Origin: an uncultured Pelagibacteraceae bacterium
GTDB taxonomy: Bacteria > Pseudomonadota > Alphaproteobacteria > Pelagibacterales > Pelagibacteraceae
DNA: 64,000 nt
Direction: 5' to 3'
Assembly (NCBI GenBank): GCA_902525625.1
Contig: CABZHM010000004.1
Location: 1 to 64,000 of the forward strand
Shown here: positions 58,982 to 64,000 of the stretch, in pieces
Numbering within the stretch: the first letter of the stretch is position 1
Layout: each line of letters starts with the position of its first letter
Notes under the pieces: model-generated
Databases searched by the model: none
What the model saw: the letters and a program-made list of their open reading frames with translations, nothing else
What the model was told of the DNA's origin: nothing
Position numbers and translations under genes: made by a program

Positions 58982-59572
58982 TTATTTTTTTTCTTGTAAA
59001 TTTTCAAGCTTTTTTTCTGTACTAGTTTCGGCCTTAGGAGCGTCTTTTTTAGCTTCATTTCTTGATGTTTCTTCTATTTTTGGCTCAACCGCTGGTGTAG
59101 CCTCTTTTTTAATTTCTGAAATATTTTCTTTTGTGATGGGAGCCAAATTTTCATCAGTTACTGTTTCTGGTTTAACATCAACATCGATACCAATTTTTTT
59201 TCTAATTTTTTCGGCAATTCTTGCTGACTTCCCAGTTCTGTCTCTCAAATAATAAAGTTTTGCTCTTCTCACTTTTCCTGATCGGATTACTTTAATTGAG
59301 TCAATCACAGTTCCAAACAATGGAAATGTTCTCTCAACTCCCTCACCGAATGATATTTTTCTGACAGTAAATGAGGAGTTTAAGTCTCTACTTTTTTTAG
59401 CAATACATACACCTTCAAAATACTGAATTCTTTCTTTTTTACCTTCTGTAATTCTTACTCCAACTTTTACAACGTCTCCTGGGAAAAATTCAGGTATCTT
59501 TTTTTCAGAGAGAATCTTTTTAACGTTGTTTTGGTTAATTTCTTCTATTGTTTTCATTTCAGTATTTATCAA
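58982..59572 (-). CDS. rplS: 50S ribosomal protein L19 (bL19) with long K/E/A/T-rich C-terminal tail
   Basis: [61 protein letters not shown]...[21 protein letters not shown]; tail [44 protein letters not shown]. Confidence 0.96.
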
Positions 59573-59573
59573 T

Positions 59574-60260
59574 TTAATCTTTCTTATATTTTTGCCACAA
59601 ATCTGGTCTTCGGTCGCGTGTTATAGCCTCAGATTGAGATAAACGCCAGTCTTTAATTTTAGTGTGATCTCCAGATAATAACACTTCTGGCACTGCTTTT
59701 TCTTCCCATATTTGAGGTTTTGTGAACTGCGGATACTCTAAAAGGCCATTTTCAAAAGTTTCATCAGCTGGAGATTTATCATTTCCTAAAACTCCAGGTA
59801 AAAGTCTTAAAACGCTATCTAGTATAACAAAAGCTGCCGTTTCTCCTCCAGACAATACATAATCTCCGATGCTTACCTCCTCAATATTTCTAGTGCCTAA
59901 AACTCTTTCATCGACACCTTCAAACTGTCCACAAATCAAAGAAAATGATTTTTCTTTAGATAAATCTTGTGCAAATTTTTGATCAAATCTTTTACCTTTT
60001 GGTGAAAGATAAAAAATTCTATCTCCGTTATTTACATTTTGATCAATAGAATTTGCCAAGACATCTGGTTTAATTAACATACCTGTTCCACCGCCGTAAG
60101 GAGTATCATCAACTGTTTTATGTTTATCTTGAGCAGAGTCTCTAATATTAATTACTTTTAAGCTCCACAACTTTTTAGTCATTGCTTTACTGTATATACC
60201 TTTGTTTAAAGGCCCAGGGAAAATTTCTGGGTATAGAGTAAATACTTGGGCTTGCATCAT
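59574..60260 (-). CDS. trmD: tRNA (guanine37-N1)-methyltransferase
   Basis: [86 protein letters not shown]. Confidence 0.97.
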
Positions 60261-60274
60261 AAATTATCTTTGTA

Positions 60275-60724
60275 TTATTTCTTTTCCTCTTTTTTAGCTT
60301 CTGCTTTTGGAGCTTCTGCTTTTGGAGATTCCTCTTTTTTAGCTTCTGCTTTTGGAGATTCCTCTTTTTTAGCTTCTGCTTTTGGAGATTCCTCTTTTTT
60401 AGCTTCCTCACTACCCTCTTTTTTTCGATCTTTTTTTGGAATAGCTTTCTGAGGATTATTTCCATTTGCCGGCATAGGCATTAATTCATTTTCACCTAAA
60501 ATCCTTGCTACTCTGGTTGTCGGTTGTGCACCTTGACCCAACCAATACTTTATTCGTTCTGTCTCTAATCCAATTCTTTCCTTTTTTTCCTTTGGCAATA
60601 GTGGATTAAAAAATCCCACTTTCTCAATAAATCTACCATCCCTTGCAAAACGACTGTCTGCAACTACTACTTTATAAACGGGTCTTTTCTTAGTCCCACC
60701 TCTTGATAACCTTAACTTTAACAT
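60275..60724 (-). CDS. rpsP: 30S ribosomal protein S16 (bS16) with repetitive K/E/A/P tail
   Basis: [42 protein letters not shown]...[13 protein letters not shown], followed by ([10 protein letters not shown])-type repeats. Confidence 0.96.
60286..60405. repeat. In-frame 30-bp tandem repeat in the 3' part of rpsP
   Basis: 60331-60360 and 60361-60390 are identical (cctcttttttagcttctgcttttggagatt), with partial copies on both sides. Encodes [10 protein letters not shown]-type decapeptides. Confidence 0.92.
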
Positions 60725-60738
60725 TCATTCTCCTTTTT

Positions 60739-62097
60739 TTATTTTAATTGATTGAATAATTCTGGAGGTATTCCTTTGTCAGTCATACCTTTGAGATTAC
60801 CCTTTGACATCTTTTTTGTCAGTTCAGACATCATTTTAAATTGTTTTAACAACTTATTGATAGTGGCTGGATCTGTTCCAGAGCCATTAGCAATTCTTTT
60901 TTTTCTAGAACCATCAATTATCTTTGGATTCTCTCTCTCTTTTTTTGTCATAGACAATATTATAGCTTCATTCTTTGTAATAATACTTTCATCAATTCCA
61001 GCTGCATCCATTTGTGATTTAACTTTTGAAACACCAGGCATAAAAGACATGATGCCTTCTATTCCACCCATTTTTTTCATTTGTCTTAGTTGTGCTAAAT
61101 AATCTTCCATAGAAAATTGTCCCTTTTTTAAATTCTCTTCAGCCTTTTTAATATTTTCTTCTCCAAGATCTTGCACCGCTTTCTCCACTAGGGATACAAT
61201 ATCTCCCATACCTAAAATTCTATTAGCAATTCTATCTGGATGAAAAACTTCAAGATTATTGATTTTTTCTCCTATACCCAAAAATTTAATAGGAACTTGT
61301 GAAACGAATTTCATACTAACTGCGGCTCCGCCTCTTGCATCACCATCAGCTCTGGTTAAAATTATACCAGAGAGATTTACAGTATTTTTAAATTCTTTTG
61401 CTACGCTTGCTGCTACTTGACCAGTCAATGAGTCAGCAACTAAAAAAGTTTCAGCAGGTTTAATTATATTCTCGATTTGTTTAATTTCACTCATCATTTG
61501 CAAATCTATTTGTGTTCTACCTGCTGTATCAAATAAAATGACATCAGCACCATTTAGGTTTGCAGCACTAATTGCTCTTTGGCAAATATCAGCTGGCTGT
61601 TGTCCTTCAATTATTGGCAAAGTTAAAATATTATTTTGTTCACCTAAAGATTTTAATTGCTCTTGGGCTGCTGGCCTATAGATATCTAAACTCACCATCA
61701 TAACTTTCTTTTTTTTGTTATTTTCTAAGTATTTTGCAAGTTTAGCGGTAGTTGTGGTTTTACCAGAACCTTGTAGACCAACTAACATCATGGGCACTGG
61801 TGGTACAGCATTAAGATTTACATCATTATTTTTTTCACCTAATAAAGATACTAATTCGTCATATACAATCTTAACAACCATATCACCAGGAGATGTAGAT
61901 CTGATAATTTCTTGTCCTAAAGCTTTAGGTTTAACTTTTTCAATAAACTCTTTAGCAACATCAAGTGATACGTCAGCTTCTAATAAAGCTTGCCTAATGG
62001 CTCTAAGACCTTCATTAACTTGACGCTCGTCAAGCGAAGGTGCTTTTTTTAGAGAGGTAAAGACTTCCTCAAATTTATTTGTTAAATTTTCGAACAT
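60739..62097 (-). CDS. ffh: Signal recognition particle protein Ffh
   Basis: MFENLTNKFEEVFTSLKK, GLQGSGKTTTTAKLAKYL, SLDIYRPAAQEQL, DTAGRTQIDLQMMSEI, LTRADGDARGGAAVSM, GMGDIVSL. Start re-placed to MFENLT, leaving a structured leader upstream. Confidence 0.97.
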   Translation of the reverse strand: MFENLTNKFEEVFTSLKKAPSLDERQVNEGLRAIRQALLEADVSLDVAKEFIEKVKPKALGQEIIRSTSPGDMVVKIVYDELVSLLGEKNNDVNLNAVPPVPMMLVGLQGSGKTTTTAKLAKYLENNKKKKVMMVSLDIYRPAAQEQLKSLGEQNNILTLPIIEGQQPADICQRAISAANLNGADVILFDTAGRTQIDLQMMSEIKQIENIIKPAETFLVADSLTGQVAASVAKEFKNTVNLSGIILTRADGDARGGAAVSMKFVSQVPIKFLGIGEKINNLEVFHPDRIANRILGMGDIVSLVEKAVQDLGEENIKKAEENLKKGQFSMEDYLAQLRQMKKMGGIEGIMSFMPGVSKVKSQMDAAGIDESIITKNEAIILSMTKKERENPKIIDGSRKKRIANGSGTDPATINKLLKQFKMMSELTKKMSKGNLKGMTDKGIPPELFNQLK

Positions 62098-62110
62098 ATT
62101 TATTCCACAC

Positions 62111-62206
62111 AGCAGTAATCGCACTAGTGGGCGAACCCTCGCTGACTAGTGTCGATCTCTTTGTTTCCAAAGACACCGCAAATTTAACGTTTTTGCGGAA
62201 ACTGCC
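62111..62206 (-). ncRNA. Structured 5' leader RNA (or small RNA) upstream of ffh: four-helix junction
   Basis: Minus-strand helices: P1 GGCAGT/ACTGCT (62201-62206 with 62111-62116); P2 CCGCAAA/TTTGCGG (62192-62198 with 62176-62182); P3 TCTTTG-GAAA-CAAAGA (62158-62173); P4 TCG(a)CACTAGT..GCGA-GGGT-TCGC..ACTAGTGCGA (62119-62155, about 14 bp). Locally GC-rich relative to the surrounding genome. Confidence 0.78.
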
Positions 62207-62213
62207 ACAAACT

Positions 62214-62219
62214 ATAATA
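62214..62219 (-). promoter_or_regulatory. Candidate -10 element (TATTAT) for the ffh leader
   Basis: The minus strand reads CTATTATAGTTTGTGGCAGT; a start 7 nt downstream falls at the 5' strand of P1. No well-spaced -35 seen. Confidence 0.4.
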
Positions 62220-62258
62220 GAGGTTCAAAAAGTCAATAAATAAGTTAAATAACTATAT

Positions 62259-63083
62259 ATGCAGATTAGAGCTTTTAAAATGGATGGATTAGGTAATGAT
62301 TTTGTCATTATTGATAATAGACAAAAAATTACCGATTTGACTAAAGATCAGATTATAAAGATTTGTGATAGAAATTTTATTGGTTGTGATCAATTAATAT
62401 TTATTGAGTCCAGCAAATCAAGTGATGCGAATTTAAAATTTTTTAATTCTGATGGAGGGGAGTCTGGTGCATGTGGAAACGGTACTAGATGTGTTGCAAA
62501 ATTAATCTCTGAAGAAACAAAAGCTGAAAGGATCATTTTATCTACTTTAAATGGAAATTTAGAGTCAAAAATATTAGATAAAAATCTTGTTACAACTGAA
62601 ATTGGTAAAGCTAAATTACAATGGAACGAAATTCCTTTATCGGAAAAATTAGATACTAAAAATTTGAATATTAGGATCACTGATATAAATAATAAAGAAC
62701 ATTTGGGTGGTACTGCTGTTAATGTTGGAAATCCACATATTGTTTTTTTTGTAAATGAAATTGAAAATTTTAATATTGAAAAAATTGGACCCAAAATTGA
62801 AAATCATAAAATTTTTCCAGAAAAATGTAATGTTACAATTGCTAAAATGATTAATAAAAATTTGATTAAAGTGAAAGTGTGGGAAAGAGGAGCTGGGCTA
62901 ACCAAAGCATGTGGAACAGCTGCATGTGCAACTGCATTCGCCGGTAAATTGAATAATCTTAATGAAAATAAAACAGACATAGAATTTCAAACAGGTAAGT
63001 TATCAATTCTTATAGATGATAGAAATTCAATCCACATGAAGGGACCCGTTTCAGAAATAAAAGAAATTGAGATCAAACTATAA
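62259..63083 (+). CDS. dapF: Diaminopimelate epimerase
   Basis: FKMDGLGNDFVIIDNR, NSDGGESGACGNGTRCVA, NVGNPHIVFFV, ERGAGLTKACGTAACATAFA. Confidence 0.97.
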   Translation: MQIRAFKMDGLGNDFVIIDNRQKITDLTKDQIIKICDRNFIGCDQLIFIESSKSSDANLKFFNSDGGESGACGNGTRCVAKLISEETKAERIILSTLNGNLESKILDKNLVTTEIGKAKLQWNEIPLSEKLDTKNLNIRITDINNKEHLGGTAVNVGNPHIVFFVNEIENFNIEKIGPKIENHKIFPEKCNVTIAKMINKNLIKVKVWERGAGLTKACGTAACATAFAGKLNNLNENKTDIEFQTGKLSILIDDRNSIHMKGPVSEIKEIEIKL

Positions 63084-64000
63084 TGGGAATTTTTGATAAA
63101 TTTAAGATAGGTTTTAAAAAAAGTGCATCCGCACTAACATCTGGATTAAAAGAAATAATAATAAAAAAAGAGATTGACGATAAAAATTTAGATAAAATCG
63201 AAGAGTTTTTAATTGAATCTGATGTTGGTGTCGAGGCTGCATCGGAAATTAAAGAAATCATTTCAAATAAAAAAATTGATCCAAACAAAGATCTATCAAC
63301 TGAGATAAATCTTATCTTAAAAGAGTACATTGTTAATTTAATGGAGCCTTTAGAAAATAATTCTTTTTTTGAAAAAAAAGATAAACTAAACGCAACTCTA
63401 ATCTCAGGAGTAAATGGTGTTGGTAAAACAACAACCATTGGTAAAATAGGTAAGATATTAAAGACTAATGGAAACAAAGTTATGTTTGCTGCTTCTGATA
63501 CTTTTCGAGCAGCTGCTATTGAACAATTGGAAAATTGGGCAAATAAAATTGACGTCAAATTAACTAAATCATCCCAAGGTTCTGATCCGGCATCGGTGGC
63601 ATATAAAGCAGTTGAGGAAGCAATCAAAAATAATTTTCACCAAGTTTTAATCGATACTGCTGGAAGACTACAAAATAAAAAAAATTTAATGGAAGAATAT
63701 AAAAAGATAGCCAACGTAACAAAAAAAATTGACCAAGATGCACCTCACAATATTATTTTAGTTTTAGATGCAACATCGGGACAAAATGTGATTAATCAAG
63801 TGGAAGAATTTAACAAAATTATTCCATTAACTGGTCTAATCATGACCAAATTAGATGGAACTGCCAAAGGTGGTATTCTGCTGGCAATAGCAAAAAAATA
63901 TCAACTACCTATTCTTGCTTTAGGCTTAGGTGAAAAAGAGGATGATTTAGAATTATTCAATGCAGAAAAATTTGCCGAGGCTTTTACACAAGTTAGTTAA
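63083..64000 (+). CDS. ftsY: Signal recognition particle receptor FtsY
   Basis: LISGVNGVGKTTTIGKIGKIL, AASDTFRAAAIEQLENWA, IDTAGRLQNKKNLMEE, LDATSGQNVINQVEEF, TKLDGTAKGG; TAA at 63998-64000. Confidence 0.97.
   Translation: MGIFDKFKIGFKKSASALTSGLKEIIIKKEIDDKNLDKIEEFLIESDVGVEAASEIKEIISNKKIDPNKDLSTEINLILKEYIVNLMEPLENNSFFEKKDKLNATLISGVNGVGKTTTIGKIGKILKTNGNKVMFAASDTFRAAAIEQLENWANKIDVKLTKSSQGSDPASVAYKAVEEAIKNNFHQVLIDTAGRLQNKKNLMEEYKKIANVTKKIDQDAPHNIILVLDATSGQNVINQVEEFNKIIPLTGLIMTKLDGTAKGGILLAIAKKYQLPILALGLGEKEDDLELFNAEKFAEAFTQVS

Follow-up and report, generated by a model that had tools for sequence, protein, structure and literature searches.

Within the window (the whole 64,000-nucleotide stretch of DNA analysed), minus strand 62220-62095 is the ffh leader of a SAR11-type genome. 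The ffh gene (60739..62097, minus strand) matches TIGR00959 with 552.6 bits (1.4e-166), and its ATG start codon is placed at 62095..62097 from the sequence and from the Ffh family match beginning at 62094; the ORF list gives the same reading frame from an upstream GTG at 62124. A weak Shine-Dalgarno-like GGAA is found at 62106-62103 on the minus strand. Downstream on that strand lie rpsP, encoding S16 (60275..60724), trmD (59574-60260) and rplS (58982-59572), the last gene of the operon. These three are open reading frames assigned by eye, and for rpsP the PF00886 model was tested in relatives. Divergent from ffh on the plus strand are dapF (62259-63083) and then ftsY (63083-64000), so that the leader lies within about 1 kb of both SRP GTPase genes.

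The sole Rfam match in the window is to RF01793, named "ffh", at 62113-62166 on the minus strand (54.4 bits against a gathering cut-off of 35, E 1.4e-07). The match spans the full length of the model (1-52), which corresponds to a hairpin termed P4 here, and it has the bulged hairpin, the conserved internal-loop C residues and the position upstream of ffh (ATG at 62097) typical of the family; the exception in position is the PS1 family, where the RNA lies upstream of rpsP. The leader RNA is real and is a member of an already known family. An earlier sequence-only reading had proposed a structured RNA oriented with ffh, and this is borne out. Its hesitant claim to novelty falls with the covariance match to a described family, which is the very Pelagibacter motif that it mentioned.

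The ffh motif comes from work on "Cand. Pelagibacter ubique" published in 2009, where it was presented as one bulged hairpin preceding ffh, with further examples from Rhodobacterales, Sphingomonadales and Rhizobiales (Meyer et al. 2009, PMC2704228). The same study speculated on regulation of ffh and noted that the motif is unlike the Ffh-binding part of 4.5S RNA (PMC2704228). A literature search found no functional test of the RF01793 family and no function shown for it. The sequence-only reading had also set the leader apart from SRP RNA, and this is confirmed: a search with E values up to 10 allowed gives no RF00169 match here, and a separate 4.5S candidate lies elsewhere in the same genome (G000 C11:27964-28056, 34.8 bits, below its cut-off). 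The reading of the leader as SRP RNA is rejected on these grounds.

Hairpins, promoter and tail

A fold of -40.4 kcal/mol is computed for the 121-nt minus strand, compared with -27.3 +/- 3.4 for shuffled sequences (z -3.85; 0 of 200 shuffles as low). Folding reproduces four proposed helices, P1 to P4, down to the bulged A and the GAAA loop, and comparison of relatives upholds P2, P3 and P4 and does not support P1. P2 occupies 62176..62198 (CCGCAAA at 62198-62192 with TTTGCGG at 62182-62176), the apical P3 hairpin 62158..62173 (TCTTTG and CAAAGA around a GNRA loop, GAAA) and P4, the published RF01793 hairpin with a CA/CC internal loop, 62122..62151, all on the minus strand. P2 and P3 extend the known motif, as neither the 52-position Rfam structure nor the text of PMC2704228 contains them.

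RF01793 was found in 267 of 297 genomes of the SAR11 order and in 106 of 385 genomes of a class-wide collection. Pairing was counted in a fixed register over 38 distinct SAR11 sequences, where 93.6% (P2), 95.2% (P3) and 95.8% (P4) of cells are paired. For 64 other alphaproteobacteria the corresponding values are 83%, 92% and 100%, from an alignment fitted to the SAR11-only model, which favours the model. The compensatory changes whose absence would have spoken against the structure are found, with P2, P3 and P4 changed on both sides across Alphaproteobacteria: 7/7, 6/6 and 9/11 pairs, respectively. In this model-fitted alignment such changes occur in 22/24 pairs, where shuffles give 16.5 and a slid partner gives 11-15; within SAR11 alone, P3 has them at 6/6 pairs. 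The 58 nt upstream of P4 give a mean folding-energy z of -2.2 in SAR11 and -1.4 class-wide (further upstream, +0.3 and -0.5), and their reverse strand gives -2.0 and -1.0, which leaves the strand undecided by energy.

Details of the hairpins vary among lineages. The P3 loop (62173-62158) is GAAA, GTAA, GCAA or GGAA in the genus of the window (loci L002-L031), GNRA being kept while N varies, and differs in other genera. The P4 internal loop (62144-62143 / 62130-62129; L093-L120) keeps a C-C mismatch, and the position beside it is A-C in SAR11. Many other alphaproteobacteria have U-A, C-G or G-U there; one published "bulge" position thus behaves as a base pair. A lower extension of P4 (AUCG/CGAU) was considered and rejected as unconserved, since three of its four pairs fail to form in 5 to 14 of the 38 SAR11 rows. 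A simple pattern scan of P4 against E. coli 16S and 23S rRNA gave no clear full match and is uninformative on rRNA mimicry, a property of only some ribosomal protein leaders.

The P1 5' strand (62201..62208, minus strand, partner 62109-62116) is unsupported outside close relatives. It pairs in 59% of cells among the 38 SAR11 sequences, and its own 3' strand serves it no better than the strands of relatives. In a cross-pairing permutation test over three SAR11 groups, the 66 distinct sequences of genus g1 gave p = 0.22 and the stratified test over all groups p = 0.61; the reversed-sequence control reached p = 0.0045, so that the test is noisy and small effects in it are meaningless. P1 as a conserved closing helix is rejected on the fixed-register counts and this test, and with it goes the closed four-helix junction of the sequence-only reading. 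On the comparative evidence, the architecture should read as a promoter, three hairpins in series (P2, P3, P4) and a conserved tail.

The promoter of the ffh leader has a -35-like TTGACT (62231..62236, minus strand) that is conserved in relatives. All SAR11 representatives inspected contain TTGAC, and so do 62 of the 64 other alphaproteobacteria, in which 45-110 nt (median 86.5 nt) separate it from P4 downstream. Judged by its 16-nt spacing to TTGACT, TAGTTT (62209..62214) is the probable -10 element, and a TAG[TC]TT-like sequence is found in most aligned relatives; an alternative, TATAGT (62216-62211), would leave a spacer of 14 nt. The TATTAT proposed earlier is doubtful, as its spacer is only 11 nt. 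With TAGTTT as the -10 element, the RNA would start inside the P1 5' strand. After P4 follows a single-stranded tail (62108..62121, minus strand) with the class pattern C..TT....TTKG, in which positions +10 and +11 after P4 are T in 92-94% of class sequences. The start codon may follow P4 by anything from 17 to 188 nt, whereas the spacing between P4 and the tail is constant, so that the tail is part of the RNA and not of the ribosome-binding site.

Competing pairings

The sequence-only reading had placed a switch in the pairing of GTTTCC with GGAAAC. This is rejected: 61% of cells pair, and the covariation score is no better than in shuffles or slid controls. Competition between P2 and P3 is conserved and better supported. 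P3 can be extended at its base (62153..62178, minus strand) by pairing CGGT (62178-62175) with ATCG (62156-62153), which excludes the closing pairs of P2 and carries P3 to 1 nt before P4. The long P3 pairs in 92.8% of SAR11 cells, and in 38/38 SAR11 rows the YGG strand at the 3' end of P2 can alternatively form the base of P3. The positions involved change together in SAR11, as the triple is G31/C52/G78 in 33 rows and A/U/A in 5 rows with no exceptions; the A/U/A rows are mutually related and represent few independent events, of which L045 looks separate. The motif could be placed in 24 class sequences, and in 22 of them the closing pair of the extension is C-G, U-A, A-U or U-G; in local folding the 4 nt before the 1-nt linker to P4 pair upstream in about 77% of 64 class sequences. 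Some lineages, L097 among them, show no obvious overlap of P2 and P3.

For the window sequence, the long-P3 state is computed at -36.0/-33.8 kcal/mol, against -42.3 for the P2 state, and being 6-8 kcal/mol less stable it would need a ligand. A P2/P3 switch is put forward as a hypothesis on these pairing patterns. A further pairing of UUCC with GGAA is speculation; covariation for this helix is absent in the fixed register, with a tiny effect only in the noisy cross-pairing test.

Operon linkage and the PS1 family

The RNA is tied to rpsP. In all 62 class genomes with both on one contig, rpsP lies downstream of the RNA on the same strand, so that a structured RNA precedes an operon carrying ribosomal protein genes, as in ribosomal protein leaders. 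In 58 of these genomes the gap is 1.4-3.7 kb, leaving room for ffh, which is the first downstream gene in nearly all genomes; in the other four, from the PS1 family, it is 53-58 nt. This family appears in public records as the PS1 clade, OCS116 cluster or MED-G09, and its genomes are drafts, 6 of 18 being at least 90% complete.

No protein of PF00448 (Ffh or FtsY) exceeds the cut-off in any of the 18 PS1 genomes, TIGR00959 is absent in 4/4 tested, and a 4.5S match is found in 0/10 tested, compared with 9/10 comparison genomes. The protein search works in PS1, since S16 was detected in the four genomes tested. The family has apparently undergone complete natural loss of the SRP pathway, as judged from these drafts. 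A literature search found no paper joining "PS1 clade" with "signal recognition particle", and Leptospira has been cited as lacking SRP (PMC10066597). RF01793 exceeds the Rfam cut-off in 14 of the 18 genomes and lies directly before rpsP wherever checked (13 genomes, 12 named records). At L254, for instance, the RNA is followed by rpsP, rimM, trmD and rplS. Inspection by eye indicates that PS1 P3 still pairs through C-G/A-U exchanges. The rpsP-rimM-trmD-rplS genes and dapF are kept in place in the family (G345, G469, G564, G640 and 14 more; L254-L269, L275-L288), and ffh and ftsY are both gone from this neighbourhood.

Proposed function and relation to known leaders

The preferred reading, to which about an even chance is given, is that this RF01793 member is a cis leader of ffh-rpsP-(rimM)-trmD-rplS that binds a protein of the operon, most likely S16 or L19, for autogenous control. 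Comparison of genomes provides its basis: a conserved promoter nearby, hairpins P2, P3 and P4 with the tail, and association with rpsP that outlasts ffh and the SRP. An RNA sensing Ffh should have decayed in PS1, and its persistence before rpsP makes a leader controlling the rpsP operon the simplest reading. The operon-encoded protein would bind the P3/P4 module and tail. By analogy with ribosomal protein leaders, among them the putative S16 leader of Flavobacteria (PMC7247131), S16 or L19 is the probable ligand; ligand and direction of control are both inferred. Less firmly, the signal may decide whether YGG joins P2 or the base of P3, and in the latter case the freed 5' UUCC might pair with the GGAA close to the start codon, reducing translation. 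The fuller proposal, that the "ffh motif" is misnamed and is an S16 (or L19) autoregulatory rpsP-operon leader with a P2/P3 shared-strand on/off switch that outlived SRP loss in PS1, is offered tentatively, at somewhat less than an even chance.

Alternatively, processing of the 5' part of the transcript could yield a stable sRNA whose targets lie elsewhere, in which case the position before ffh would reflect only its promoter. Rfam types RF01793 as an sRNA, "ffH leader RNA" is among the sRNAs expressed in Bartonella (PMC7717549), an RF01793 transcript is reported in Mesorhizobium (PMC5596092) and marine metatranscriptomes are cited in PMC2704228; leaders, however, often show up as short reads, no conserved terminator was seen by eye after P4, and linkage to the rpsP operon is near-invariant even after ffh loss, making a trans-acting role unlikely. 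The Mesorhizobium huakuii transcript, MH_s5, is assigned to IGR_Pb, apparently a plasmid region, and would be off the usual ffh locus (PMC5596092). Autoregulation by Ffh, in which Ffh would bind its own leader and repress translation, was suggested in PMC2704228 and raised again by the sequence-only reading, and it suits the place of ffh as first gene; yet the RNA still precedes rpsP in genomes that lack Ffh, FtsY and any detectable 4.5S, and the published dissimilarity to the Ffh-binding part of 4.5S also speaks against it, so this partner is disfavoured and quite improbable. Least probable is a riboswitch sensing a small molecule or temperature to set translation capacity; competing P2/P3 pairing is typical of switches, but few unpaired nucleotides are conserved and the operon is ribosomal, not metabolic.

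The RNA spans one of the most abundant bacterial groups of the ocean and many other alphaproteobacteria. The SRP-less PS1 clade serves as a natural gene knockout, and survival of the RNA there without Ffh shifts attention from the obvious ligand to the operon's ribosomal proteins and opens the ligand question to direct testing. The extended structure also offers better mutation targets than the published single hairpin.

Among known systems, 4.5S SRP RNA (RF00169) shares only a functional tie to Ffh and has its own candidate gene. L19 leaders of Firmicutes and Flavobacteria (named in PMC7247131) are comparable in that rplS (L19) is part of the operon, and none has an Rfam match in the window at the gathering threshold. 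The S16 leader proposed before rpsP-rimM in Flavobacteria is likewise a structured leader with suggested S16 autoregulation (PMC7247131); it belongs to another lineage, the comparison is one of function, and the ligand is putative in both. Closest is the published ffh motif, with which the leader shares the type of locus and the P4 hairpin with its internal loop, and which was first described in Pelagibacter itself. RF01793 as published is one 52-nt hairpin upstream of ffh; the conserved unit is shown here to include the promoter, P2, an extended P3 and the tail as well, and in the PS1 branch the downstream gene is rpsP instead.
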